Source of the DNA: Artemia franciscana
Taxonomy: Eukaryota > Arthropoda > Branchiopoda > Anostraca > Artemiidae
Direction: 5' to 3'
DNA length: 64,000 nt
Assembly (NCBI RefSeq): GCF_032884065.1
Contig: NW_027062917.1
Coordinates: 1-64,000 of the forward strand
The notes beneath the pieces were generated by a model. The model made no database searches. It saw only the letters and a list, made by a program, of their open reading frames with translations, and was not told the origin of the DNA. Both the position numbers and the translations under genes were made by a program. Within the stretch, counting starts at the first letter, position 1, and the number at the start of each line of letters is the position of its first letter. Shown here one piece after another: positions 4,600 to 64,000 of the stretch.

Positions 4600-5640
4600 A
4601 GGTAACATATTTTGCATGCAGACCTGCTATACCCACATTGATGGCATCAGGGGACTTGCAGATTCTTCATATGACCTCTTGTACTTGCAAGGGATGAGGA
4701 GAAAACTTGACTTTAGAGGTTGTTTTCTAGCAGTTCACAAGTAGTGATTGCATCTCCTCTCTTTCTTCAATAGACCAGGGTGGGGACTTTGAGGGACACA
4801 AGGCATTCCTCATACAGCTTGTCTTTTAAAGCTGGTATAAGCTTTGTTGCTCACTTTTTTTAGCACTATAGCATCCATTTTATAATGAGGAGATGCTAGG
4901 GTTATATCAAATTCCACGTGTGGATGTACAATAGTTATGTACAGCTTCTTGACCACTCAATGGCTTCCTGTTCAGGGTCATTTGTCACAACAAAGTCTAG
5001 AAAGGAGGGTTGTTGCTGGTGTCTGAATCATGTTGATTGGTCAACAAAATGTGTCAGTAGATTGTCACTGAGGGATTTAGTAGTGACACAGGAGGGGCTA
5101 CTTTCAGGGGGAATCCTATACTTGCAACCCACTTAACATCAGGCACATTAAAATCTCCAAACAAAAGATTGATGAATGTTCCTAGGCATTCATCCAAGAT
5201 ATGAAATCAGATTCAGCTAGGTTAGAAATAAGTGGATCAGGAGCAGACACACTATGGCAAACAACAAATATTAGAAATGGTTCAGATCCAACAGGGAATT
5301 TCAAACAGACATACTCAACCCAACTATCATCAGAATAAATAAAGGAGTAACTAATAGTTTCAGACCTCTGTCCAGTTCTGCAATATATTACTCCTCCTCT
5401 CACACACTGGGTTATCCAAATTGCTGCATAGACTGAATCCAGGGACTTGGATGTGAGATTCTTTCAATTTTGATACCTGAGTTATTAGGGCAAATTTCAC
5501 AATCAAAAATAACATCTATATAAAGATCAAAACATACAACTTCCAGTTCATTGAGTTTTGGAACAAGAATGTGATAAATTGTATTAAAAACACATGACAT
5601 GTTTTTTTCTGTTTGTTATTTTAGCAGTATTGTTGTTAAT
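4600..5640 (-). pseudogene. LINE endonuclease (APE-type) fragment
   Basis: Reading the minus strand from 5600 downward gives FDLYIDVIFDCEICPNNSG, then RGGVIYCRTG, SWVEYVCLKFPVGSEPFLI, FVVCHSVSAPDPLI and, after a frame change, LFGDFNVPDVKW. 'RGGGV.IY', 'W+.+.....' and 'GDFN.PD..W' are hallmark blocks of the endonuclease/exonuclease/phosphatase domain of CR1/jockey-type non-LTR retrotransposons. Downstream pieces (LLTNQHDSDTSNNPPF, then VTNDPEQ-like residues) continue the domain with several stops and frameshifts. No reverse transcriptase follows, so this is a dead fragment. Confidence 0.75.
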
Positions 5641-7555
5641 CAAATTCCTTGTAATCAGGGGGGATTGGCCCTCCCCTTCAATTGATGCCAGCATTTTTGT
5701 AATTTTCTTTTGAGTTACTATCACTTTCCTATCCAAAGGGTATTAGCCTTTGGTGAACTTGGATAGTCTTTTCATTATAAAAGTAAGACTTTCAAAAATA
5801 GAACTAGTACAGGAATGATTAAATTTATCTATGTTTTGATGAATTTTCTAGGTTAATATTCTCTGTACTTAGACAGTCCTTAATCTTGGATAAACATTTG
5901 ATAAAAATTTGTCTTTCATAAGCATGGACAGTAGGTTTCTAATCTTGGGTATGATATGTTTGGTTTTAGCTACTTGGGATTGGCTGAATATAATTTAGGA
6001 ATGCTACAACTATTTCAATGCTACAATAATTTTGCTTCACAGTGCTTGTCTATGATTTATATACTTTCTACAGTACTTAGATAGACTCTACAGTTAAGTA
6101 ACCAGTGTAATTAAGATTGTTCATTTTGTATAAAGTTAAAATAGTCAAGCTAATCTCATACTGATGAAAAATATCAAGATGAATCCAATGGTAAACAATC
6201 CACTTTCTAGGAGGTACAATATAGATTTTACAGTGATGTAAATGATGAAGTATTGATTAGCTGTCCAACAACTTGGTCTCTTAACCAATATTAAGACTAG
6301 TGGTATGAATATACCACTTGATGTGCTGATAAAATTCTAGATGAGGAGCTTTTTGTTATCTTAGAAAATAGTGGATGAAACTCAGGAATGATTCTATAGC
6401 CTATACTATGCCATGGGAATGTTCTGAGTATCATTCTTGAGCCTTGGTCCAAAAGGCACAGGCCTCTGCTGAACTGGAACAAATTTTGCTGTAAAAAACT
6501 GGAAATTCCAGAAGTAGATCCACAGAATCCTGGTTTATAATGTATTGAAAAACGTGAAAAAAGCCCTAATGCAGCACAAAATCTTAAAATCATCAAGATA
6601 ATTTTATAAACCTAGAGTCCTAGGAAAGTTGACTTCAGTAAAAATCATGAAATAATTAAAAAAGCCAAAATTAAGTAAAATCATAATGTTTATGATAACC
6701 CTAACATGTTTTTTGTTTGCAAAATCAAAAATTGTCAGTTTCTTTGTTCTGTTCTGAAGGATCCTCCTTTAGAATTAGTAGATGGTGGTCTAAAATGCAA
6801 CTCTTACATGCATGCGTGTGTTTCTATGCTCTTGAGAATGGCTAATCTTTTAAGGATAAATATCCTTAGTGTTAAAACAAGGCTTTGTCAAAATTAATTT
6901 GCAGGCTTTTAATCAGCAATGTAAAAATCAACTAGTCCAAAAAGTCTAAAATTTAATGCTTAACTGCTTTACTTGTTAAATAGTTAAGTGGCAATATGCT
7001 TAATTAAGTCTTAAGATTTAAAACTTCTATCCTAGAATGAAATTCTGGGTCTGTTTCAGTTTTTTTTTTCATAGTAATTGATTACATTAGTTTTTGAGCT
7101 TCTATACAAGATCTTTGTCATTAAGCCTGCCCTTTTCAGGTTTTTTTTTTTTTTTTTTTTAAATTGATATACCAGGAAAGGAATTTATCAAGACATAGGG
7201 AAAGGCAAAAATCTTAGAGGGCAACTACCTATCTCTGCTTTCTTCCCCCAATTGAAGAAGTTAAATATTGTTGCAGGACGCCCAGAAATACCCCTTACTG
7301 AGAAAAATTGCTTATGAACAATGGAAGCCAATTATGAGGGGGAGCTATTACCCCTCCCTAGATTTTGAGACTACATTTTTGGCATTTCTTTTGGATAAAA
7401 TGGAAAAAATGCCCCCCCCCCTGCCTACATGTTGAAACAATTCCGTTCTGTATTTACATAGAAAAAATCATTCTAATTTTTTAAGATTTAAATTTATTAT
7501 GTCCCCATTTCTTTAAAGTATGAAATATAATGGCTTTTGTCCTTTTATATTTCAG
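5641..7555. other. Upstream flank or 5' intron of 14-3-3; diverged family A copy near 6325-6500
   Basis: AT-rich. At about 6325-6500 the order of blocks (attctag, ttatcttagaaaa, catgggaa) matches family A in forward orientation but is strongly diverged. A T-run lies at 7141-7160. No upstream non-coding exon of the 14-3-3 gene could be identified. Confidence 0.5.
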
Positions 7556-12896: not shown

Positions 12897-14094
12897 ATTG
12901 AAATATTTCATGTTTGTTTATAGCCATGAATTATAATTAATAGCTATAAACAAGTATAAAATCATCATAAAAAAGTCGTGTGGTGTATGTCACAACAAAA
13001 TCATTCGTAACCCATTTGTGAGGGGGGGGGGGGGGGAGGAGGGATAAAAGTTTCAACCTTTTTCACAGATTTGCTTCTTATCATCTTAATTTACCTAACT
13101 GATCTATTACAAAAAAATAGTTACATTACTTTCCTCCCTGTACTAAAATCTTCGTATTTATGTAATCTTTGAAAGTCCATATTTTCTCAGAAAACCATGA
13201 TACCTACCTGTCCTTATTAAAATCTTCCAATTGTTACCTTTTGCCATACTACTACTTTCATCATTTAAGTGTTCAATGCTAAATGTACGCCTCAACAAAA
13301 CCGCCTTCAGGATTTTCCTGTGGGAGGGGGTAAAAGTTTCCATAATTTTCAAATGTCAATGGTTAAACCATTTTCACGGATATACTTTCTATTCTATCAT
13401 CTTGATTCACTAACTCACCTATTACTAAAAAAGAAATAATGTAAAAGAATAATAATTATTGGTACCCAATAACCTCAGGGCATTTGATTAGCTTTATAAG
13501 TTTTTGTGATGAAAGACCTAGACCAAAATTTGTATCTTAGGTGAAAAGCACTGTCCTTCACACTTCGTATTAATCAACAAATAATTCTTCTTTTCCGTGT
13601 AGGGGTAATAACAAATTAATGATATTTTTTTTGCTACTCCGATCCTGTAATTAGTGCAGCTTTCGACCTTCTGGGTGAGGCACGTACACTTAAATTCATC
13701 CCCTGTTTTCGTCCATTTTCGGAGAATTTTGGGATATAAGATGATCCTCTGATCGGTGAGGCTCAGACCATTCAATCAGCCTTGCAAGCTTTACAAATTA
13801 TTAAGCCTAATTTATATATAACGAGTATTTAAAAAAATTGAAATTGTTATTCATAATTTCAATATTATTAAATCGATTGGCTACCTTACAATTTTCAATC
13901 ATTAGCAACTTGCTCCTCTTTGCGAAAGAATCATAGTTTTTATGCTACAAAATAGCAGAAAACGTCACTTTTCCTTAGCACAGTCGCTAAGTCATGACAG
14001 TCGCATGATTTCATGATGATGCCAAATAGTTAATAATATGTTATAGATAAAAAATGCATTTTTTTTGTATAGTCGCATTTTACTCCTGGTCAGT
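11936..14094. other. 14-3-3 intron 2, AT-rich, with simple repeats
   Basis: Contains a C run at 12060-12067, a (TA)n microsatellite at about 12835-12895 and a G run at 13022-13037. Two diverged related blocks, at about 13036-13130 and 13325-13440 (shared 'aaaagttt..c', 'ttatcatcttaatt.ac'), suggest an old local duplication. No coding exon is seen. Confidence 0.5.
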
Positions 14095-14470
14095 CAATTT
14101 TGGTTACTAAAAAGGGCATTAGAAATTTTAATTTCTGTTCGGATGAACCCTCTTCCGATGACCTAGGACTAATTGTTCGATACTACCATCCATGGGAAAA
14201 CAACAAATGACCACGCATCCGCGATTTTTGTTCTGACATAAACGCAAAATTTCGCATTCTAGTAGATTTGTCGCATTCTAGTTGCGTTCTGATATGCTGA
14301 ATCTGATGGTGTGATTTTCATTAAGATCGCTTTACTCTTCCGAAAATCAGGAGTATTTTCTCATGCTCGTAGCTTTTGATGGGGCAGCATTAAACTTAAT
14401 GCTGAACCAGCATAGAAAGTTAATTCTTCTAATCCTTACAGTTCGTTACCACGATCTCTTTGAATTTTAA
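14095..14470 (+). repeat. Old diverged fragment of family B (inner half)
   Basis: Matches the inner half of the 1.65-kb family B unit in the same orientation as 22110-22570. Shared blocks in order: 'ttactaaaaagggcattaga', 'cgatactaccatccatggga', 'acgcatccgcgattt', 'gatatgctgaatctgatggt', 'cattaagatcg', 'tttgatggg' and 'cagttcgttaccacga'. It is far more diverged than the other copies, so probably older. Confidence 0.6.
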
Positions 14471-15175
14471 GTAAAATATTGCATTCATCAAAGAAAACTA
14501 TTCAGCATTGTGAAAGTGCTTATTTACTACCGATGAAAAGCCTGAAGAATTCGTTGTTCAAAATTTGCTTATTCTTTTCTGATGTAATCTAGAATATAGG
14601 ACTTTGCCATTATTCTTTGCCTATGTTCTTTTATGAACAAAGTGACAAAATCCGAGTGAAAAGAATGTATTGCGTAACATCTTTGTGAATTGACTTGTCT
14701 TTCCTTTGGCGGGCCTCTTGTTCAAATTTCTGGCTTGGGTAGTTGTGTATGTAAATTTGTTTAGCTACATCTCACCTTGAGGCTGCTGCAAGGACGGTCA
14801 ACCAAACTTGTCTTCTTAGACCAGAGGAGCTTTTATGCTATTATGGGAGCATGAGTAATGCATTAGATGAATTTTTTGGATGAGCGACAGTTTTTAAATG
14901 GAGCGACTCAATTATGGTTTTTAATTGATGTCTGATAATCATATCCGGAATTTGTGGTTGTTCTGGATAGGATTAAAAATGACGATATTTTTGTGCAAAC
15001 ATTTGGGTAATAATATTTAAGCCTTAGTATTACTGTACTTTAAAACAAGAACCAATTGGGGGGAGGGAAGTAAGGTGCTATTGCCTCTCCGTGATTATGA
15101 AAAATATCATTTTTATTTTGTTATTTAAAAAGAAAATCCAAAAAAAGAGAAATATGTTCCCGTCCTACATTCTAA
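14471..15175. other. 14-3-3 intron 2, nothing recognised
   Basis: AT-rich sequence without coding potential or repeats shared with the rest of the window. Confidence 0.55.
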
Positions 15176-16427
15176 CAAGAGCTCATGGCACTTGTGACGA
15201 GGTCGGAAGAGCTAAGAGCCAAAAGCTCATATGGCATGAGCTCTAGCAAAATTCTAAGAATCGATAGATTGATTTAAATGGAAAATCAGACGCTTAATCC
15301 CAGTCGGGATTTAAACTAAGAGCTTTGAGACACGAGGTCCTTCTAAACATCTAAATTCATTAAGATCCGATCACCCACTCGTAAGTTAAAAAATACTTCA
15401 TTTTTTCTCATTTTTCCTCTCCCTTCAATCCCCCAGATGGTTGAATCGGGGAAAACGGCTTATCGAGTCAATTTGTGAAGGTCACTGACACGCCTACTAA
15501 TTTTCATCGTCCTAGCACGTCCAGAAGCACCGAACTCGGCAAAGCACTGGAAATGTCCCCCAGCTCCCTCAAAGAGAACGGATCCGTTCCAATTATGTCA
15601 ATCAAGTATCTAGAACTTGTGCTCATTCCTCCCATCAAGTTTCATCCCGATCTCTCCACTCTAAGCGTTTTCCAAGATTTCTGTTTCTCCCCTCAAACCC
15701 CCTATGTCCCTGGATCCGATTCGTATTGAAAATGGACCTATATATCAAGTTTCATTAAGATCCAACCACCCAATCGTAATATAAAGATACCTCAATTTTC
15801 ACGTTTTTGAAGATTTCCGGTTTCCCTTTCAACTCCCCTCAATGTCACCGGATTGGTCAGGATTTAAAATAAGAGCTCTGAAGCACGAGATCCTTCTAAA
15901 TATCAAATTTCATTAAGATTTGATCTCCCATCCGTAAGTTAAAAATACCTCATTTTTTCGAATTACCCTCCTTCCAACTTCCCCAAAGGGAGCAGATCTG
16001 TTCCGGTTATGTCAGTCACGTATCTTGGACATGTGCTTTTTCTTCCCACCAAGATTCATCCTGATCTCTACACTCAGTGTTTTCCAAGATTTCTGGTCCC
16101 CCCCCCCTAAATCCCCACAATGACACTAGATCCGGTTGGGATATCAAATAAGAGATTTGAGTTACGAGGTCCTTCTAATATGAAGTTTCATTAAGGTCCA
16201 ATCACTCCTTCGTAAGTTAAAAATGCCTCATTTTTTCTAATTTTCATAATTAACCGTCCCCCCCCCCAACTCACCCAAATAAAGTGGATCCGTTATGGTT
16301 ATGTCAATCACGTATCTAGGATTTGTGCTTATTCTTCCCACGAAGTTTCATCCCGGTGCCTAAACTAGCAAAACCGGGACCGACAGAATTTGCGATAGCT
16401 ATATGTCACTTGATAAATACCAAGTGC
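15176..16427 (-). mobile_element. Non-coding tandem-unit element, copy 2, inverted
   Basis: Reverse-complement copy of the element at 8241-10766. It begins (plus strand) with caagagctcatggcacttg, the complement of the shared tail, and ends with ataccaagtgc, the complement of the shared head. About three and a half internal units are present, including the module with 'ttttcatcgtcctagcacgt' at 15490-15530. It is shorter than the others because it has fewer units, which fits unit gain and loss after insertion. Confidence 0.7.
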
Positions 16428-24752: not shown

Positions 24753-26796
24753 CTAGTTAATATTGTAAGCAGTCAGGTCAATGGGGAAGACCAGTTGCTC
24801 CGCCTGTCTTTCTGTGCCACCAGAAATATTCGGAGCAGGTAGCTTCATTTCGACACTCGACTTGCTGAAAGTGTAATTTTCACTGGTCCTGATGACCTTT
24901 TAGAAAGGAACCATTCTCTTAATATACATGAGCTCAATGTCAAAGCTGGATTCAGAGAGGACTTCACCCACGGAGTAAATTTTGTTCTTTTTGATCTCCC
25001 CCTCGCAAACAAGAACATAATCTCCAACACGGACTTCATCGTCACACAAAAGATCGTTTTGGTCTTCAAGGCCACAGTTGAAGCTTTCATCACTATCACA
25101 GCTACTATTGCCTTTTGTGGCAGAGTCACCAAAGTCATCATCAGACGAAGAATCAGAAAACAGGGTCTTTACATGACTGTTTCTCTTGAAATTGCGGTGA
25201 AATTTAGCAAAGTATCCAACAGCACTGCCCCTTTTCTTAGGTTGGACATCCTGTTTTTTTGGCACTGGATTTTGGACAACGGCTTTCTTTGTCTTGGGGT
25301 TAATCTTAGAAGTCTTGGCCTTTTTTTTCCCTCCCTTTCCATGAATTCTTTCTCTAAAGCATCTTTCACTGGGGTATCCGTGGCAATGATGGTTTTCTTC
25401 CTCTTCCGAGCTCCTTCTGTCAGCTTCCTGGGGGGCGCTCTTGGGTAGGGCCTTACAGCTTCGGGTGTAACGGCGGTAGGGGAGGCAGCGCTTGGGGAGG
25501 CAGAGCTTGGACCCGCTTCGTTATGACTATTCAATTCTTGCTTGACTTCTTCGGCCTCTGGAGCTGCGCTGGGATTAGGGTCTGGTCTGTCGGTCACAGC
25601 TGATGCGAGAAAATCGTCATCTGTGAAAAGTAGGTGGTTGAAGGGGGAAAATCCCAGTAGCAGCAAAGCCACTGACTATGTTTTTCTGTGTGAAGGAGAG
25701 TTGGAAGGCCTTTCCAACAAGTTGAACGATGATAGAGATGCCAATTGTCTTTCCGGGGTTGCTGACCATCCAGTCATTGCAGGCGATGTTGTAGTAGTTT
25801 TTGAATGATTTGTAGACTGTTCTGTCCAGTGGCTGTCGCTTTCCGCTGGTGTGGGGTGGCAAAGTCAGAACCACTATCCCGTTATCTTTGCAGTACTGAA
25901 TGGCCTGGATCGACACATGAGAAGAGTGGTTGTCTTCTATCAGCAATATGGGTCTCTCTTTTGTACAGCGGGCATGTTTCACAACGTGTTCGAGGACAAG
26001 CAGGAAGATGTCAGATGTCATCCATCCTTTGGCAGAACCGCTACCGCCACTGCCTGGTGGTGCACCATTCATCAACTGGGAGCCAAATCTTTTCCTTGGG
26101 AAGACGAAGTAAGGTGGCAAGAAATTACCTTGAGCATTGATGGTGCAGCAGACTGTGGTCAGTTCGCCTCGTTCAGCAAAAGTCACTTGGCCCACCTGTG
26201 TGTGCCCTTGGGTGCTATCACATTTGGTGGTCTCTGCACTGTTGTTGCCCCCGTCTCATCTAAGTTATAAATATCACTAGGCTGAACTTAAACTTATTCA
26301 TAACAGTCTCCAAGTTGTCATAGAACTCGTTTACAGTTGTTCTGTTGAATGCCATGGCTCTGGCCAAGCTTGTTCCCTCTGCTTTCCGGATAGACAGGTC
26401 TGGGAAGCGTTTCATGTAACTGTAATACCAGTCTTTCCCCATTATCTTTTTCTCATGCCATGTTGATGGCACCTTCAATTGGTTCATCTTTGCAATTTCG
26501 AAAGCGAATTGGCGGACGTTGAGCCGTGTCAAACCATGGTGCATTTTGCATGCCTTTATCAAATAATCGTGTGAAGTTGCTGTTCAAGTTCATCAGTTAA
26601 CACTTGACGGATTTGGTAATTCGGCTCAAATTTTAAAGTCAGCTTTTTATCGTCCGACGCATTGCAAGCCTTATTTACATATCGACGGAGTGTTGTCTCT
26701 GGGATCTCGTATTTTTTTGGCAGCAGCCCGTTGTGAAAGCTTCAATTCCAGTACCGCGTGCACGGCAAGCTTCATACGCTCTGCTTCATTGGGCAT
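24753..26796 (-). pseudogene. Pogo/jerky-like transposase, several frame breaks
   Basis: From ATG at 26796 the protein starts MPNEAERMKLAVHAVLELKL and SQRAAAKK with a psq-type helix-turn-helix. It continues with a CENP-B-like part (TRLNVRQFAFEIAKMNQLKV, WYYSYMKRFPDLSIRKAEGT), then the DDE_1 catalytic domain: ITDETG (first Asp), LLIEDNHSSHVS (second Asp) and HTSGKRQPLDRTVYKSFK (third Asp). A low-complexity Ser/Pro/Ala-rich linker and a basic, then acidic C-terminal tail follow (KRKKTI; SDSSSDDDFGDS; DDEVRVGDYVLV), ending at TAG 24753-24755. Frame is lost near 26730, 26560, 26270, 25640 and 25230, and an in-frame TAA follows VPF at 24900. All three catalytic acidic residues survive, so inactivation is by frame breaks only and is probably recent. 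Confidence 0.85.
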
Positions 26797-48780: not shown

Positions 48781-48892
48781 GTTTTTCAGGCTTCTCTATT
48801 GGTTGTCCAGACCATCAAGGACAATGTTTAATTGAAGATGGAGTAGCTGGAGATCTAATATGTCAGATGTGTGGCATAGTGGTGCTTCCTAG
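48781..48892 (+). CDS. TFIIB-like zinc-ribbon gene, first visible exon
   Basis: The acceptor ttttcag ends at 48780 and the donor GT is at 48893. In the only open frame the exon reads FSGFSIGCPDHQGQCLIEDG, VAGDLICQMCGIVV and LPR(split). C-x2-H-x15-C-x2-C is exactly the spacing of the TFIIB N-terminal zinc ribbon, and the surrounding residues (CP.H....L.ED..AGD.IC..CG.VV) match it. In TFIIB this ribbon docks on RNA polymerase II. A second in-frame acceptor at 48789, nine bases on, is a possible NAGNAG-like alternative. The start codon lies upstream and was not found; a tandem-unit element begins only 17 bp after the donor. Confidence 0.85.
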
Positions 48893-51099: not shown

Positions 51100-53625
51100 T
51101 TTTAAACTAGCCACTGGCACCCAGTCTTAAAATTTATCCATACCCTTTGGGGTGATTGTGGTGATTCAAAAGTTGAGCAAAACCCACTAATTCAAGTCCT
51201 TGCTGATAATTTTCTGTACCAAACAGTAACTGTGCCCACAAGAATGCGTCCGGGACAAAATCCTTCAACACTCGATCTAGTCATAACCAATGACCCAGAA
51301 AAGGTCATCGGGACACAGACTCTCAGTCCGATTGGCTCAAGTGACCACATGCCAGTCCTTTCATCTATACAACTCAACTCCAAACCATCAAAATATACTA
51401 AGCAATCCTTTACTAATTACAAGATGATGGTGGAAGAGCTGATAGATGCCAATCTGGAAACTCTGATCTCAGATGATGTGGAAGCTTCATGGCTAATCCT
51501 AAAAAATAACCTACTAGAGAGCCTAGCCAAACATACCAGCATGACATGGAAAAAGAAACCAAAAACTCTACCTTTCCTCAACCCAAAAATCAAAAAACAA
51601 TGCAATAGGAAGAAAAAACTTTGGGAGAAGTTCGTGAAACAAAAAACAACAACAGTATACAAGAAGTACAAAATCGCCAGGAACCTCCTCAGAAAAGAAA
51701 CGCGGAAACTCTCTGTAAACTACGAAGAACATCTGGCCAGAAATGTCAAGGAAAACCTAAGTTATTCTGGAAACATATCTCCCTACGTAAACCAGGCAGA
51801 CACTCAGTACCGGACCTAGAGAATAACAGCTCAGTCTCTTCCTGTGCCTTCGAAAAAGCTAATATTCTGAATAAGCAGTTTGCCTCCGTGTTTTCTAAGG
51901 ATGACCTCCAATCAGCCCTCCCACCAGCAGAACAGGCTCACACTCCCTTCCCAATGTTACACTCACCGATCACAGTCGAAGAAGTAACCAAACAGCTTAA
52001 GGAGTTTGATGCCAACAAATCGACTGGACATGATTGTCTGAGTCCACGACTGCTGAAGGAACAAAGTCCTGCTATTTCAGCGCCCCTGGTAAAATTATTT
52101 AACTTGTCGCTAACACAAGGGAAGCTTCCAAGGGATTGGAAGAAGGCAATAGTCATCCCAATTCATAAGAAGGGTAGCAAAACTTCGGCAGCAAACTATA
52201 GACCTATCAGCCTTACCTGTGTGGCATGCAAGGTCATGGAGAGAATTGTGAACAAAAGGAGCATTAACCATCTTGAGGCTAACTCACTCATCAGCAGCAG
52301 CCAGCATAGTTTTCGTTCTAAGAGATTGGTGGATACAAACCTTCTTGAGTCTTACAGTCTTGTAACTGACCTACTAGAAAAAGGAGTACCAGTGGATATA
52401 ATCCTGCTGGATCTAGCCAAAGCTTTCGACAAAGTTTGTCACCACTACCTCATTCACAGGCTATGCACCCTGTCTCTTAGTCCAAAAGTGATCAGTTGGA
52501 TCAAGGACTTTCTTAGGGATAGAACGCAGCAAGTGAAAGTGAACAATGGACCAAACAGTCACGTACTCTGATGAAGTCAAAGTCACCAGCGGGGCCCCCC
52601 AGGGCAGTGTGCTGGGCCCTACCCTGTTCAATATATACGTAAATGAGCTAGCCCTTATCACCAGTAACAAAACCACTCTCTATGCAGATGATTCAAAACT
52701 CATAGGTCCTGCCAATACCCCTTCTGCCCGCCAATCTCTCCAAACTGATCTCAACCACATGTGCTCCTGGGTCAAAAGATGGTTGCTGGAATTCAATGCT
52801 GAAAAATGCAAGGTCATACACTTTGGACACAGCAACCCCCAGCAACAATACCTAATGACCCAAAACCCTGGAAGTCACCACATACTGGAGCATGTTCAGG
52901 AGGAAAGAGACCTTGTTGTTATTGTAGAGTCCCAGTTGAAATTCAGCTCCCACTCACAGAAGATCTCAGCCAATGCTAGCAGAGCCCTAGGTATCATTAA
53001 ACACAGTATTACCAGCAGAAGTAGACATGTAATCACCAAGCTCTACAAGGGACTGGTAAGACTGTGTTTGGAGGTGGGGACCATCCTGGCCACCCCTTTA
53101 TTCAAAAAGGATAAGGTAGTGCTTGAACAAATCCAACGAAGGGCCACTTAGCTGATTGCCGGTATGGAAAACAAGCCCTACAGTGAACGGCTGATGGAAT
53201 TCAATCTCCCCTCTTTAGTCTACAGGCGGAAACGTGGGGATATGATCCAGGCACATAAACTCCTCTCTACCAATCAAGAAAATGAGCTCCTGGAGATTGA
53301 CCCCTCCCGCATAACACGAGGACACCCAAAACAAATCCGCAAACTTCATGCAAGGACTGGAGCAAGATGCAGCTTCTTCTCGAACCGGATTGTGAACCTC
53401 TGGAATAACCTCAAGGAGAACACTGTTTCTGCTGAATCAACAGATGTATTCAAACGCCGTCTGGATGCTGAGTGGAGTGACAAACCATGGAGATTTGACT
53501 GGGATGCACCAGAATCTAATCAACCACGTATGCAACTGTCATCACAAGGAGTGATTCAACAGGATCAAAAGTCCTTATTTCACTCCAAGCTGTTATTTAA
53601 GGTAATTTAAGGTAAGACATGCTGG
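51100..53625 (+). mobile_element. CR1/jockey-like LINE, 5'-truncated within the endonuclease
   Basis: The coding order is: endonuclease C-terminus (PTRMRPGQNPSTLDLVITND; IGSSDHMPVLSSIQ); a basic linker; the RT domain (CAFEKANILNKQFASVFSKD; KSTGHDCLSPRLLKEQSP; LPRDWKKAIVIPIHKKGSKT; SAANYRPISLTCVACKVMER; VDIILLDLAKAFDKVCHHYL; VTSGAPQGSVLGPTLFNIYV; LYADDSKLIGP with intact YADD; WLLEFNAEKCKVIHFGHSNP); and a C-terminal domain (LPSLVYRRKRGDMIQAHKLL; RTGARCSFFSNRIVNLWNNL). It ends with a twofold atttaaggta repeat (53596-53615), like CR1 3' tails. Breaks: a frame change near 51750, a frameshift near 52550 and an in-frame TAG at 53149. Otherwise well preserved, so relatively young. It lies inside the TFIIB-like intron in sense orientation. 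Confidence 0.88.
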
Positions 53626-54150: not shown

Positions 54151-54696
54151 AGATGCAAAAGATCAAGGTTTTCACTTAGATACCAAATGCCATTCATTGC
54201 AAATAAATATAACCTTGATGATAAAATTCAGATTTATTCATCACAAAAATCTCAGCAGAACCTAAAGAAGCAAATATTAAAGATTGTTTTTTTTTATGTT
54301 TGTTCATTCACCATTGATGATGGAATTTTAAAATTTATGATGTCTCTTATATGCTTTTTTTGTCCCCATGATGAGATGTCCTCCCACGTCCCTCCTGCCC
54401 AGCATTTCTTTTCTTCTTTCCATTCTTTTCTTCGTTTTTTCTTTTGCTATTGTTGTCGTTTTTTAATTTTTTATCAAGCTAATTTCTGTTAATATTAATA
54501 TTATTACAACGGAGTTTTTGTTTCTTCTATGTTATTACGTACATACCCAAACTTACGAGCCCTGCTCTCTATTGGTTTTTTTTTTTTTTTTTTTTAGATC
54601 TATTACTTTGAGATCTGTCGAAATACTTGTGGAAAGTGGAACGACTAAACTGATAACCTGATATTTAGATGCCTCACCTATCTTTCTTTTTTGCAG
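54151..54696. other. TFIIB-like intron, including the source segment of satellite module D
   Basis: 54524-54625 ('ttctatgttattacgtacat', 'cttacgagccctgctctcta', a 20-T run, 'atctattactttgagatctg') occurs inverted in the satellite at about 57473-57570, 60713-60811 and 62498-62590. The remainder is unassigned. Confidence 0.75.
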
Positions 54697-54847
54697 AGCC
54701 ATTGATGTGACAGAAAAACATGAATCAAACAGCAATGAAGGTTGCTCTACTTTTGGTCTTGAGGCAGGTCAGTACAAGGTAAACGAAGTTCTAAGGTGCC
54801 ACGAAAACGCAGAATTGAAAAGGAAAACACAGCTGCAGGAAAGACGA
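54697..54847 (+). CDS. TFIIB-like zinc-ribbon gene, middle exon
   Basis: Acceptor ttttttgcag (AG 54695-54696), donor gtatgtg from 54848. It completes the split Arg and reads AIDVTEKHESNSNEG, CSTFGLEAGQYKVNEVLRCH and ENAELKRKTQLQERR, ending in phase 0. RAIDV.....SN aligns with the residues that directly follow the ribbon in TFIIB ('RVIDVGSEWRTFSND'), supporting the exon join. After about 15 residues similarity to TFIIB ends and the sequence becomes charged, leading into a coiled coil instead of the B-linker and cyclin repeats. The B-reader tryptophan/arginine motif is not kept. Confidence 0.85.
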
Positions 54848-54979
54848 GTATGTGACACGTGTTACTTTTTTTTAATTAACGACAGTCAGCATGTGAATGG
54901 ATTAATTCTTAATAATTGTCATCATTTCCAATGTTGAGTGGGCCCTCCAATCATATAAATTGGTGCCAATAGATTACCC

Positions 54980-56720: not shown

Positions 56721-56945
56721 ATCAAAGAGCTAGAAGAAGAACTGAAAGTGATCAATAAGAAAATTAAAAAAATTGAATTTGAATTCAAAGTCCATAGACT
56801 AAAAAGTGAGGAAAAGCTTAAGTCAATACACAGATTGTATAGGCTTCAGATGGAGAGGAGAAAAGGGGCTGAGGCACAAAAAGCAGCAGACTTAGAAAAC
56901 CTCTTAGTTAAGCATATTGGGTGTGTTTATCCCAATTTTAGTTAA
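56721..56945 (+). CDS. TFIIB-like zinc-ribbon gene, terminal coding exon (coiled coil)
   Basis: Acceptor tttattcccag (AG 56719-56720); stop TAA at 56943-56945. It joins in phase 0 to the middle exon and encodes IKELEEELKVINKKIKKIEF, EFKVHRLKSEEKLKSIHRLY, RLQMERRKGAEAQKAADLEN and LLVKHIGCVYPNFS. About 60 residues have coiled-coil composition with heptad-like spacing of Leu/Ile/Phe; the end is non-helical. The visible protein (ribbon, short linker, coiled coil) is therefore about 162 residues plus an unseen start. The last 15 codons and the stop are also the first module of the satellite array that follows, so the end of this gene has been copied dozens of times. Function unknown; a regulator that competes for the polymerase II dock is one speculative idea. 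Confidence 0.8.
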   Translation: MKELEEELKVINKKIKKIEFEFKVHRLKSEEKLKSIHRLYRLQMERRKGAEAQKAADLENLLVKHIGCVYPNFS

Positions 56946-57327
56946 TTTGTGATTCTATGCTGTATCACTCACATGTGATATTTTTATGCATGAAAATTCC
57001 ATATATATGATATTTCCGGTTTCGTTGTCATCAACATAATAGTTCATTTTTATTTTTTGTTTTTCTGTGTTCTGAAGCTCAAGAGCAGACGCCTTTTGAG
57101 TTTTTGAATCGTTGCTTGTATCCAGGGTTTTCAGTTTAAACATTCATTTTACTAATTGAGAGAAAAAAACCTCTTAGTTAAGCATATTGGGTGTGTTTAT
57201 CCCAATTTTAGTTAATTTGTGATTCTATGCTGTATCACTCACATGTGATATTTTCATGCATGAAAATTCCATATATATGATATTTCCGGTTTCGTTGTCA
57301 TCAACATAATAGTTCATTTTTATTTTC

Positions 57328-57330
<3 letters not shown>

Positions 57331-57407
<77 letters not shown>
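57331..57407. repeat. 77-bp poly-A run inside the array
   Basis: Pure A run at the point where other units have a shorter D-module A run. Probably expanded by slippage, or mis-sized in assembly. Confidence 0.9.
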
Positions 57408-57410
<3 letters not shown>

Positions 57411-60299
57411 ATATATATAATATTTCCTGTTTCGTTGTCATCAACATAATAGTTCATTTTTATTTTTATTTCGACAGATCTCAAAGTAATAGATCTAAAA
57501 AAAACAAAAAAAAAAACAATAGAGAGCAGGGCTCGTAAGTTTGGGTATGTATGTAATAACATAGAAGAAATCACTGTATCACTCACATGTGATATTTTCA
57601 TGCATGAAAATTCCATATATATGATATTTCCTGTTTCGTTGTCATCAACATAATAGTTCATTTTTATTTTTGTGTTTCTGTGTTCTGAAGCTCAAGAGCA
57701 GACGCCTTTTGAGTTTTTGAATCGTTGCTTGTATCCAGGGTTTTCAGTTTAAACATTCATTTTACTAATTGAGAGAAAAAAACCTCTTAGTTAAGCATAT
57801 TGGGTGTGTTTATCCCAATTTTAGTTAATTTGTGATTCTATGCTGTATCACTCACATGTGATATTTTCATGCATGAAAATTCCATATATTTTTATTTCGA
57901 CAGATATCAAAGTAATAGATCTATAAAAAAAAAAGAAAAAAAAAGTTATTTTTTGTGTTTCTGTGTTCTGAAGCTCAAGAGCAGACGCCTTTTGATCTAT
58001 CCAGGGTTTTCAGTTTAAACATATTGGGTGTGTTTATCCCAATTTTAGTTAATTTGTGATTCTATGCTGTATCACTCACATGTGATATTTTCATGCATGA
58101 AAATTCCATATATTTTTATTTCGACAGATATCAAAGTAATAGATCTATAAAAAATGTTTCTGTGTTCTGAAGCTCAAGAGCAGACGCCTTTTGATCTATC
58201 CAAGGTTTTCAGTTTAAACATATTGGGTGTGTTTATCCCAATTTTAGTTAATTTGTGATTCTATGCTGGGTTTCTATCCAGGGTTTTCAGTTTAAACATT
58301 CATTTTATTAATTGAGAGAAAAAAACCTCTTAGTTAAGCATATTGGGTGTGTTTATCCAATTTTAGTTAATTTGTGATTCTATGCTGTATCACTCACATG
58401 TGATATTTTCATGCATGAAAATTCCATATTATTTTTATTTCGACAGATATCAAAGTAATAGATCTATAAAAAAAAATTATTTTTATTTTTTGTGTTTCTT
58501 TGATCTAAAGCTCAAGATCTGACGCCTTTTGAGTTTTTGAATCGTTGCTTGTATCCAGGGTTTTCAGTTTAAACATTCATTTTATTAATTGAGAGAAAAA
58601 AACCTCTTAGTTAAGCATATTGGGTGTGTTTATCCCAATTTTAGTTAATTTGTGATTCTATGCTGGGTTTCTATCCAGGGTTTTCAGTTTAAACATTCAT
58701 TTTATTAATTGAGAGAAAAAAAACCTCTTAGTTAAGCATATTGGGTGTGTTTATCCCAATTTTAGTTAATTTGTGATTCTATGCTGTATCACTCACATGT
58801 GATATTTTCATGCATGAAAATTCCATATATATGATATTTCCGGTTTCGTTGTCATCAACATAATAGTTCATTTTTATTTTTATTTCGACAGATATCAAAG
58901 TAATAGATCTATAAAAAAAAAAAAAAAATAATTATTTTTATTTTTTGTGTTTCTGTGTTCTGAAGCTCAAGAGCAGACGCCTTTTGAGTTTTTGAATCGT
59001 TGCTTGTATCCAGGGTTTTCAGTTTAAACATTCATTTCATTAATTGAGAGAAAAAAACCTCTTAGTTAAGCATATTGGGTGTGTTTATCCCAATTTTAGT
59101 TAATTTGTGATTCTATGCTGGGTTTCTATCCAGGGTTTTCAGTTTAAACATATTGGGTGTGTTTATCCCAATTTTAGTTAATTTGTGATTCTATGCTGGG
59201 TTTCTATCCAGGGTTTTCAGTTTAAACATTCATTTTATTAATTGAGAGAAAAAACCTCTTAGTTATACATATTTTGTGTGTTTATCCCAATTTTAGTTAA
59301 TTTGTGATTCTACGCTGTATCACTCACATGTGATATTTTCATGCATGAAAATTCCATATATTTTTATTTCGACAGATATCAAAGTAATAGATCTATAAAA
59401 AAAAAAAAAAGTTATTTTTTGTGTTTCTGTGTTCTGAAGCTCAAGAGCAGACGCCTTTTGATCTATCCAGGGTTTTCAGTTTAAACATATTGGGTGTGTT
59501 TATCCCAATTTTAGTTAATTTGTGATTCTATGCTGTATCACTCACATGTGATATTTTCATGCATGAAAATTCCATATATTTTTATTTCGACAGATATCAA
59601 AGTAATAGATCTATAAAAAAAAAAAAAAAAAAAGTTATTTTTTGTATTTCTGTGTTCTGAAGCTCAAGAGCAGACGCCTTTTGATCTATCCAGGGTTTTC
59701 AGTTTAAACATATTGGTTGTGTTTATCCCAATTTTAGTTAATTTGTGATTCTATGCTGGGTTTCTATCCAGGGTTTTCAGTTTAAACATTCATTTTATTA
59801 ATTGAGAGAAAAAAAACCTCTTAGTTAAGCATATTGGGTGTGTTTATCCAATTTTAGTTAATTTGTGATTCTATGCTGTATCACTCACATGTGATATTTT
59901 CATGCATGAAAATTCCATATTATTTTTATTTCGACAGATATCAAAGTAATAGATCTATAAAAAAAAATAAAAAAAAAAATTATTTTTATTTTTTGTGTTT
60001 CTGTGTTCTGAAGCTCAAGAGCAGACGCCTTTTGAGTTTTTGAATCGTTGCTTGTATCCAGGGTTTTCAGTTTAAACATTCATTTTATTAATTGAGAGAA
60101 AAAAACCTCTTAGTTAAGCATATTGGGTGTGTTTATCCCAATTTTAGTTAATTTGTGATTCTATGCTGTATCACTCACATGTGATATTTTCATGCATGAA
60201 AATTCCATATATATGATATTTCCGATTTCGTTGTCATCAACATAATAGTTCATTTTTATTTTTATTTCGACAGATATCAAAGAATAGATCTAAAAAAAA

Positions 60300-63200
60300 A
60301 AATAAAAATATTTTTATTTTTTGTGTTTCTGTGTTCTGAAGCTCAAGAGCAGACGTCTTTTGAGTTTTTGAATCGTTGCTTGTATCCAGGGTTTTCAGTT
60401 TAAACATTCATTTTATTAATTGAGAGAAAAAAACCTCTTAGTTAAGCATATTGGGTGTGTTTATCCCAATTTTAGTTAATTTGTCATTCTATGCTGTATC
60501 ACTCACATGTGATATTTTCATGCATGAAAATTCCATATATATGATATTTCCGGTTTCGTTGTCATCAACATAATAGTTCATTTTTATTTTTATTTCGACA
60601 GATATCAAAGTAATAGATCTATAAAAAAAAAAAAATAAAAAAAAAAAAAAAAAATCCATATATGATATTTCCTGTTTCGTTGTCATCAACATAATAGTTC
60701 ATTTTTATTTTTATTTCGACAGATCTCAAAGTAATAGATCTAAAAAAAAAAAAAAACAATAGAGAGCAGGGCTCGTAAGTTTGGGTATGTACGTAATAAC
60801 ATAGAAGAAATCACTGTATCACTCACATGTGATATTTTCATGCATGAAAATTCCATATATATGATATTTCCTGTTTCGTTGTCATAAACATAATAGTTCA
60901 TTTTTATTTTTTGTGTTTCTGTGTTCTGAAGCTCAAGAGCAGACGCCTTTTGAGTTTTTGAATCGTTGCTTGTATCCAGGGTTTTCAGTTTAAACATTCA
61001 TTTTACTAATTGAGAGAAAAAAACCTCTTAGTTAAGCATATTGGGTGTGTTTATCCCAATTTTAGTTAATTTGTGATTCTATGCTGTATCACTCACATGT
61101 AATATTTTCATGCATGAAAATTCCATATATATGATATTTCCGGTTTCGTTGTCATCAACATAATAGTTCATTTTTATTTTTATTTCGACAGATATCAAAG
61201 TAATAGATCTATAAAAAAAAAAAAAAAATATTTTTATTTTTTGTGTTTCTGTGTTCTGAAGCTCAAGAGCAGACGCCTTTTGAGTTTTTGAATCGTTGCT
61301 TGTATCAAGGGTTTTCAGTTTAAACATTCATTTCATTAATTGAGAGAAAAAAACCTCTTAGTTAAGCATATTGGGTGTGTTTATCCCAATTTTAGTTAAT
61401 TTGTGATTCTTTGCTGGGTTTCTATCCAGGGTTTTCAGTTTAAACATTCATTTTATTAATTGAGAGAAAAAAAACCTCTTAGTTAAGCATATTGGGTGTG
61501 TTTATCCAATTTTAGTTAATTTGTGATTCTATGCTGTATCACTCACATGTGATATTTTCATGCATGAAAATTCCATATTATTTTTATTTCGACAGATATC
61601 AAAGTAATAGATCTATAAAAAAAAAAAAAAAAAAAAATTATTTTTATTTTTTGTGTTTCTGTGTTCTGAAGCTCAAGAGCAGACGCCTTTTGAGTTTTTG
61701 AATCGTTGCTTGTATCCAGGGTTTTCAGTTTAAACATTCATTTTATTAATTGAGAGAAAAAAACCTCTTAGTTAAGCATATTGGGTGTGTTTATCCCAAT
61801 TTTAGTTAATTTGTGATTCTATGCTGGGTTTCTATCCAGGGTTTTCAGTTTAAACATTCATTTTATTAATTGAGAGAAACAAAACCTCTTAGTTAAGCAT
61901 ATTGGGTGTGTTTATCCCAATTTTAGTTAATTTGTGATTCTATGCTGTATCACTCACATGTGATATTTTCATGCATGAAAATTCCATATATATGATATTT
62001 CCGATTTCGTTGTCATCAACATAATAGTTCATTTTTATTTTTATTTCGACAGATATCAAAGAATAGATCTAAAAAAAAAAATAAAAATATTTTTATTTTT
62101 TGTGTTTCTGTGTTCTGAAGCTCAAGAGCAGACGTCTTTTGAGTTTTTGAATCGTTGCTTGTATCCAGGGTTTTCAGTTTAAACATTCATTTTATTAATT
62201 GAGAGAAAAAAACCTCTTAGTTAAGCATATTGGGTGTGTTTATCCCAATTTTAGTTAATTTGTCATTCTATGCTGTATCACTCACATGTGATATTTTCAT
62301 GCATGAAAATTCCATATATATGATATTTCCGGTTTCGTTGTCATCAACATAATAGTTCATTTTTATTTTTATTTCGACAGATATCAAAGTAATAGATCTA
62401 TAAAAAAAAAAAAAAATAATAAAAAAAAAAAAAATTCCATATATGATATTTCCTGTTTCGTTGTCATCAACATAATAGTTCATTTTTATTTTTATTTCGA
62501 CAGATCTCAAAGTAATAGATCTAAAAAAAAAAAAAACAATAGAGAGCAGGGCTCGTAAGTTTGGGTATGTACGTAATAACATAGAAGAAATCACTGTATC
62601 ACTCACATGTGATATTTTCATGCATGAAAATTCCATATATATGATATTTCCTGTTTCGTTGTCATCAACATAATAGTTCATTTTTATTTTTTGTGTTTCT
62701 GTGTTCTGAAGCTCAAGAGCAGACGCCTTTTGAGTTTTTGAATCGTTGCTTGTATCCAGGGTTTTCAGTTTAAACATTCATTTTACTAATTGAGAGAAAA
62801 AAACCTCTTAGTTAAGCATATTGGGTGTGTTTATCCCAATTTTAGTTAATTTGTGATTCTATGCTGTATCACTCACATGTAATATTTTCATGCATGAAAA
62901 TTCCATATATATGATATTTCTGGTTTCGTTGTCATCAACATAATAGTTCATTTTTATTTTTATTTCGACAGATATCAAAGTAATAGATCTATAAAAAAAA
63001 AAAAAAAAAATATTTTTATTTTTGTGTTTCTGTGTTCTGACTGTGTTCTGAAGCTCAAGAGCAGACGCCTTTTGAGTTTTTGAATCGTTGCTTGTATCAA
63101 GGGTTTTCAGTTTAAACATTCATTTCATTAATTGAGAGAAAAAAACCTCTTAGTTAAGCATATTGGGTGTGTTTATCCCAATTTTAGTTAATTTGTGATT

Positions 63201-64000
63201 CTATGCTGGGTTTCTATCCAGGGTTTTCAGTTTAAACATATTGGGTGTGTTTATCCCAATTTTAGTTAATTTGTGATTCTATGCTGGGTTTCTATCCAGG
63301 GTTTTCAATTTAAACATTCATTTTATTAATTGAGAGAAAAAACCTCTTAGTTATACATATTGGGTGTGTTTATCCCAATTTTAGTTAATTTGTGATTCTA
63401 TGCTGGGTTTCTATCCAGGGTTTTCAGTTTAAACATTCATTTTATTAATTGAGAGAAAAAAAACCTCTCAGTTAAGCATATTGGGTGTGTTTATCCAATT
63501 TTAGTTAATTTGTGATTCTATGCTGTATCACTCACATGTGATATTTTCATGCATGAAAATTCCATATTATATTTATTTCGACAGATATCAAAGTAATAGA
63601 TCTATAAAAAAAAATTAAAAAAAAAAATTATTTTTATTTTTTGTGTTTCTGTGTTCTGAAGCTCAAGAGCAGACGCCTTTTTGAGTTTTTGAATCGTTGC
63701 TTGTATCCAGGGTTTTCAGTTTAAACATTCATTTTATTAATTGAGAGAAAAAAACCTCTTAGTTAAGTATATTGGGTGTGTTTATCCCAATTTTAGTTAA
63801 TTTGTGATTCTATGCTGGGTTTCTATCCAGGGTTTTCAGTTTAAACATTCATTTTATTAATTGAGAGAAAAAAAACCTCTTAGTTAAGCATATTGGGTGT
63901 GTTTATCCCAATTTTAGTTAATTTGTGATTCTATGCTGTATCACTCACATGTGATATTTTCATGCATGAAAATTCCATATATATGATATTTCCGATTTCG
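60300..64000. repeat. Higher-order repeat within the array, period about 1.78 kb
   Basis: Private variants recur together: 'gacgtctttt' (instead of gacgcctttt) at about 60353 and 62132, 'ttgtcattctatg' at about 60481 and 62261, full-length D ending at 60780 and 62560, and 'tccgatttcg' at about 60231, 62001 and 63991. The spacing is 1.77-1.78 kb for the first pair and about 1.99 kb to the last, where two extra A-C' units have been added. Confidence 0.75.

Follow-up and report, generated by a model that had tools for sequence, protein, structure and literature searches.

A young satellite-like array at the 3' end of a zinc-ribbon gene in Artemia franciscana, very probably born in place from the gene's own end and an inverted piece of its intron

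The host gene and its array

The DNA considered here, referred to as the window, is the first 64,000 nucleotides of contig NW_027062917.1 of the Artemia franciscana assembly GCF_032884065.1, plus strand; the contig, abbreviated C331, is 67.9 kb long and the window is C331:1–64000. From position 57166 to its right edge the window consists of a tandem array, which follows directly on the last exon and 3' flank of a gene whose predicted protein carries a TFIIB-type zinc ribbon. The array is tiled from two segments of that gene: S1, made up of the last 15 codons, the stop and 220 bp of 3' flank, and S2, a stretch of intron which is present in the array as an inverted copy. The array is very probably a young satellite-like one that was born in place at the 3' end of its host gene and then multiplied. 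It reaches the end of C331 and resumes on a second contig, C2549 (23,066 bp), both contigs breaking within it. Genome-wide scans covered the 1.27 Gb assembly of 6468 contigs. The features in the window are as follows.

48790–48892, plus strand: exon with the TFIIB-type zinc ribbon (GCPDHQGQCLIEDGVAGDLICQMCGIVVLP); homologous to an intronless copy of the gene on contig C1; AG/GT borders, the acceptor being uncertain by 9 bases.
54521–54625, no strand assigned: source of S2, an intron stretch present in the array as an inverted copy; includes a 20-base T run; 97% to 57467–57570 in reverse by BLAST.
54697–54847, plus strand: second exon found; in the C1 copy it abuts the other exons directly; AG/GT borders.
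56721–56945, plus strand: last exon, with a coiled-coil-like part, the tail and the stop TAA; AG acceptor, frame open to the stop; collinear with the C1 copy and partly with a relative on C3.
56896–57165, plus strand: unit 1, the source of S1, which comprises the final 15 codons, the stop codon and 220 bp of 3' flank and remains joined to its exon; a single S1 is present in each of the relatives on C1 and C3.
57163–57169, plus strand: first tail-to-head junction, at which A3 of GAGAGAAA is joined to A4 of AAAACCTC with zero net overlap.
57166–64000, plus strand: the array in the window, a tiling of S1 and inverted S2, running on to C331 67892 and then onto C2549.
57331–57407, plus strand: 77-base A run in the second unit.
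57467–57570, minus strand: first full-length inverted intron copy; others lie at 60712–60810 and 62493–62590.
60052–63239, plus strand: higher-order repeat pair 60052–61447 and 61830–63239, 98.4% identical at an offset of 1778 bp.

The zinc ribbon of the C1 copy matches the TFIIB ribbon in the PDB with an E value of 1e-6. Pfam Zn_Ribbon_TF is matched by the C1 copy (6e-5) and by the window protein (1.7e-4), both under the curated cut-off of 29 bits. Beyond the ribbon the C1 copy and the spliced window protein give weak coiled-coil-type hits, and neither of the two has a match to the cyclin-like repeats, two of which are expected in the TFIIB family. The predicted protein is TFIIB-like in its zinc ribbon only; a sequence-only reading of the window, which had called the gene TFIIB-like, was right in this narrower sense. 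That reading had also taken the gene to be single-copy, which it is not. It belongs to a small family, which includes an intronless relative at C1:27.578 Mb (locus L010, C1:27577–27579 kb, minus strand; open frame, 79% identity over 155 amino acids), an intron-bearing paralog at C3:26.195–26.209 Mb, and further relatives in the assembly. The first exon of the host gene was not found; a 57-bp match at 1719–1775 was dropped as a candidate upstream exon, as it appears to lie in a retrotransposon-like stretch. The intronless C1 relative, with its frame intact, is possibly a functional retrogene, and a stretch read as retrotransposon-like lies upstream of it.

Composition of the array

At 90% identity or more, S1 and inverted S2 blocks account for 6610 of the 6835 bases at 57166–64000, and for 19,444 of the 20,099 bases of the array joined across both contigs. 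A looser gapped tiling leaves 72 bases of the same window interval uncovered, some of its tiles being gapped alignments of 78–88% identity which cross inserted pieces. The bases outside the tiles are short fillers and A-rich stretches. Unit 1 consists of the codons NLLVKHIGCVYPNFS, the stop TAA at 56943–56945 and the 220 bp that follow, and had been recognised previously as the gene's true end (with about 200 bp of flank). The stop-bearing S1 motif occurs 29 times in the window, once as unit 1 and 28 times beyond it, in agreement with the roughly 28 recurrences counted earlier, and the array continues past the window's edge to 67,892. The coding tail and stop had been thought to persist in every such module; the tail is complete in 23 of the 29 and truncated in six, at six junctions joining 57143 to 56908 or 56913, and four in-window copies carry a 1-bp deletion in it. 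In the joined array 62 of the 78 stop-bearing S1 copies (unit 1 included) have a complete coding tail.

The exon end and 3' flank were correctly named as a source by the sequence-only reading, but the second source, the inverted intron stretch 54521–54625, was overlooked. It sits in the intron preceding the exon at 54697. The intron state GATCTCAAAG is kept in 12/12 full-length S2 copies, and GATATCAAAG is found in 37 copies. The antisense intron piece and the A runs have a cDNA-like (complementary DNA-like) appearance, and the family has an intronless copy on C1, all of which would suit an RNA-mediated origin in which reverse transcripts of the pre-mRNA were inserted at the gene's own 3' end. 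The A runs, however, come after the reversed piece of intron, whose T run they match, and S1 stops ~860 bp before the end of the C1/C3 collinearity rather than at the end of the mRNA; such an origin is extremely unlikely. Retroposition was rejected as the source of the A runs, since they correspond to the T run of the intron in reverse, and the 77-base run has presumably expanded from that T run after it was copied in reverse. The array also contains antisense open frames (62268–62777, minus strand, 169 amino acids; 57320–57691, minus strand, 123 amino acids), which are apparently products of repetition and could mislead gene annotation.

Junctions and higher-order repeats

The joined array contains 59 tail-to-head joints, at which the A run has a modal length of 7 (36 of 58). 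By class, the junctions number 59 (J1), 32 (J2), 7 (J2b), 11 (J2c), 33 (J3), 5 (J3b), 12 (J4), 33 (J5), 14 (J6) and 7 (J7). About ten classes are thus each reused several to many times, suggesting that a handful of events was multiplied later. Eight junctions were examined: one lacks overlap, two overlap by 1 and 3 bp, and five contain a filler of 2–6 bp. These overlaps lie close to the null expectation for random breakpoints, and the founding steps would therefore fit end-joining or theta-type repair with templated insertion better than homology-driven exchange.

Longer self matches of the joined array extend over 6629 bp (99.7% identical, offset 3235), 3184 bp (99.1%, offset 3540), 1692 bp (99.3%, offset 2591) and ~1410 bp (98.4%, offset 1778). 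Like a satellite, the array has many head-to-tail copies at one locus, and its copies are homogenised and arranged in higher-order repeats. A classical satellite would also form large blocks or occupy several loci, whereas here there is one locus of ~20.4 kb. It is a nascent single-locus array and not a classical genome-wide satellite.

A single locus with two edges

Across the genome the tail-to-head junction pattern is matched exactly 55 times, 26 times on C331 and 29 on C2549 (a 3.5-kb overlap of the two contigs being counted on both), and none elsewhere. The reversed pattern, used as a control, has 0 matches in 1.27 Gb, which excludes chance as an explanation for matches that all lie on the two contigs of the array. 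Among its best candidates, a search with the intron piece gave 65 matches, 60 of them on C331 and C2549, one being the intron itself. The other five lie at the C3 paralog (two), on C30 (one; locus L057, C30:290.7–290.9 kb) and, weakly, on C15 and C13.

C331 terminates inside the array at 67,892. On the minus strand of C2549 the array runs for 12.9 kb, and at its far edge the last S1 copy passes GAGAGAAA into CTTCATGTACTTAATTTTCTGG, a flank which also adjoins the C1 and C3 relatives. C331:64367–67892 aligns end to end with the start of reversed C2549, with nine single-base indels and 0 substitutions; an alternative register of the two contigs gives 5 substitutions over 6.5 kb. The joined array measures ~20.4 kb, or at least ~23.9 kb if the contigs do not overlap. 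At 67.9 and 23.1 kb the contigs are short, and both end within the array, as might be expected if the assembly had falsely repeated a short duplication in tandem. They have different unique flanks, however, and agree without a substitution in their 3.5-kb overlap, while shared variants and ordered higher-order repeats distinguish the copies; an artefact of this kind is very improbable.

Direction of origin

The relatives on C1 and C3 have one S1 each, which continues into a common flank; the S1 of C3 is split by ~430 extra bases. At position 56939, unit 1 and 79/79 scored array copies have T, and both relatives have G. This T is private to the window gene and present in all scored copies, and as the strongest single test it argues that the array descends from the gene's exon. 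The C3 paralog is homologous to window 54180–54900 (75% over 772 bp), which indicates that the home of S2 is the intron; within the paralog the S2 stretch is broken by extra bases. A tree of S1 modules (31 sequences, 13 distinct) had too few variable sites for reliable rooting, and polarity was instead read from individual states, with C1 and C3 as outgroups. Unit 1 has private changes at 56985, where it differs from 58/58 array copies, and at 57061, where it differs from 42/42. It is therefore the founding position and not an unchanged founder, so that the ancestral unit is, as had been claimed, still in place on the gene but not pristine. Growth of the array from the gene's own end, also proposed in the sequence-only reading, is borne out by the single S1 with its flank in C1 and C3, the flank at the far edge, the 56939 T and the confinement of the junction to one locus. 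The genome-wide search of 1.27 Gb did not reveal a dispersed family of modules from which the exon would be derived.

Several points weigh against this reading, of which the first concerns sequences elsewhere in the genome. The junction occurs exactly only on C331 and C2549, but the part of S1 at ~57047–57150 is 75–79% similar to sequences at C3:15.73 Mb (two), C4, C19 and C147, with a further match on C4127, and the ancestral flank is 70–72% similar to four of the C3:15.73 Mb (two), C4, C19 and C147 loci. It could be argued from this that the modules belong to a satellite or transposon which is older and dispersed in the genome, and that the gene took its last codons from it. At an E value of 10, however, no coding tail is found in five flank relatives (L052–L056), and the dispersed relatives are far more diverged than the array copies are among themselves. 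The C1 and C3 relatives hold the coding tail as a single copy, in frames without stops. Taken with the absence of an exact junction match outside the array and the gene-private T in 79/79 scored copies, this makes a dispersed origin highly improbable. With regard to a transposon-derived monomer, 57047–57150 resembles a low-copy dispersed sequence for which no element termini or coding region were established, and the coding tail and S2 are gene-derived.

A second point concerns the far edge, where S1 shares with C1 four states that are seen in no other scored array copy: C at 56984, G at 57036, ATTTTT inserted after 57045, and the loss of 57078–57079. They suggest slightly different gene-end lineages for the array and for its right flank, and simple growth on one chromosome leaves them unexplained. 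They would fit an array that began when two diverged gene copies, either alleles or paralogs, recombined, with the left end of the array coming from a copy X and its right flank from a copy Y whose lineage was also the parent of the intronless C1 copy. S1 copies that follow a full-length S2 have T at 57018 in 12/12 cases, as do the far edge and C1, and those starting at 56896 or 56898 mostly have G (21/28). The C2549 flank is 97.5% identical to C1, compared with 84–96% for the window exons. On C30 the end of the gene's intron is joined to a piece of the second exon whose identity is 98.6% with C1 and 93.2% with the window, suggesting that there was once a C1-type gene with an intron. Against seeding from two copies, this fragment is the only trace in the assembly search results of such a gene, the full form being absent from them, and later conversion could also have brought the four changes to the far edge. 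This beginning is considered possible, although not probable. It modifies the seed step only and is compatible with growth of the array in place. Lastly, the overlap of C331 and C2549 is deduced from their sequence; the locus may have further 3.2-kb repeats that are nearly identical, or a gap may separate the two contigs.

Location of the array with respect to the transcript

The C1 copy and the C3 paralog are collinear up to position 5730 of reversed L010, ~860 bp past the insertion point of the array at 4869. The joined exons of the C1 copy suggest that it is a retrocopy; the parental mRNA would then have extended past 5730, and the array would probably lie inside the 3' untranslated region (3' UTR) of the host gene. 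The C1 copy has AATAAA 125 bp beyond the insertion point and a second time at 5474. The array itself has 16 such motifs, with none in unit 1, and one lies 124 bp into the C2549 flank. Array copies were rejected as new terminal exons, a judgement made from sequence without scoring: no splice acceptor has been copied, because the copied segment begins inside the exon.

Proposed formation of the array

A formation can be proposed that brings together the observed facts, namely the two sources, both edges, the restriction to one locus, the direction in which copying went and the repeated use of about ten classes of junction; its repair route and order are conjectural. A break or a stalled fork near 57.06 kb would have been repaired by copying, in reverse, ~105 bp from the intron of the gene itself. 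Repair would then have resumed upstream at 56960, giving the order S1 (to 57057), inverted S2, S1 (from 56960). The far edge presents S1 to 57057, a full-length inverted S2, the filler TCA, S1 from 56960 and the flank, an arrangement which has the look of the seed from which the array grew. Two A runs (57165 to 56896) would then have been joined tail to head, setting S1 in tandem, and a few more joints with short fillers would have produced sub-variants. Unequal exchange or repeat-mediated break repair may then have amplified the joints, producing higher-order repeats offset by ~1.8, 2.6, 3.2 and 3.5 kb and an array of ~20.4 kb. If the array formed in this way, an unexpanded allele would run from GAGAGAAA straight into CTTCATGTACTT. 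The coding tails were most likely carried along passively as they were copied, and the growth of the array was most likely neutral, with no function needed or in evidence.

Relation to known repeats

By the time the origin of a satellite is inferred, its seed has often disappeared. At this locus the seed gene, the donor of the inverted intron, the unduplicated relatives and both edges are legible, which allows the steps leading from a repair event to an array of higher-order repeats to be put in order and tested. The array has probably lengthened the 3' UTR of the gene by ~20 kb, with the reading frame still open. Stellate and Suppressor of Stellate in Drosophila are also tandem arrays derived from a protein-coding gene. 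In these, whole gene units are repeated, whereas the array described here repeats only a terminal fragment and an inverted piece of intron.

Section 4.1 of PMC12692304 gives transposable elements, ribosomal DNA spacers, micro- and minisatellites and older satellites as sources of satellites; gene ends are not named in that section. The array resembles the satellites treated there in that a pre-existing segment was duplicated in tandem and then amplified, but its source differs, being the terminal exon, 3' flank and inverted intron piece of a protein-coding gene. According to a statement in PMC5615363, any random sequence could in theory give rise to satellites. The higher-order repeats described in the same source, in which neighbouring variant monomers are amplified jointly as longer units, are similar to those found here; in the present case the seed arrangement and the higher-order repeats lie at one ~20 kb locus with both edges present. 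Inverted insertions at repaired breaks, mostly of ~5–34 bp and made by foldback, are described in PMC11724301. The likeness is a short stretch copied in inverted form at a repair joint; here, by contrast, 105 bp was copied from ~2.4 kb away and was amplified afterwards. Among the open-access literature matches listed, no satellite composed of a gene end and an inverted intron was recognised from titles and the first lines of abstracts. The array is a well-resolved composite, gene-derived case within the known range of satellite origins.

Arrays in related flanks

From ~57047 onwards S1 has relatives at six places besides C1 and C3, namely C3:15.73 Mb (two; locus L052), C4, C19 (L053, C19:8.82 Mb), C147 (L055/L012, C147:66776–69017) and C4127. 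Flank-only relatives include C3:8.5 Mb and C146. On C147 a 124-bp unit, cut from the homologous flank, is repeated 18 times. C4127 also has a 124-bp array, which is not counted as independent because C4127 is 98% identical to C147 over 5.6 kb, and the two arrays may stem from the same event. About 1 kb downstream of the shared core, a 103-bp unit is repeated 24 times at C3:15.73 Mb (in a stretch containing 100 N) and 33 times on C19; the C2549 flank has a single relative of this unit (73–84%). The left edge of the 124-bp array lies in a purine tract (GAGAGAAA / GAAGGAAA) homologous to the tract that ends S1. With so few loci this coincidence of array edges may be due to chance, a rough, uncomputed estimate being ~1 in 10. 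That the 3' flank of the gene is intrinsically prone to forming arrays, and that in addition the ~49 antisense intron copies in the presumed 3' UTR could allow the transcript to pair with its own pre-mRNA, is a tentative and rather unlikely proposal.

Other observations

In the far flank of the array, at ~13243–16209 of reversed C2549 (in L035), there is an insertion of ~3 kb bordered by a repeated stretch of ~170 bp. It shows partial similarity to the sequence at C3:15.73 Mb.

The coil region of the last exon (window 56721–56891) differs from the C1 copy, L010, at 27 of 168 bases. Between exon C and the C1 copy there are 27.2 nonsynonymous and 1.8 synonymous changes (Nei–Gojobori), with a Fisher p of 0.08. 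Compared with the 97.5%-identical flank, which is possibly of another lineage, exon C gives p 6e-9. Rapid adaptive change in this coil region is possible.

Elsewhere in the window, 51106–53610 contains several pieces of open frame which we take, from their translations, to be those of a non-LTR (long terminal repeat) retrotransposon. The region 24900–26583, minus strand, is presumably transposase-like, of the pogo/CENP-B type, again as named from its translation.

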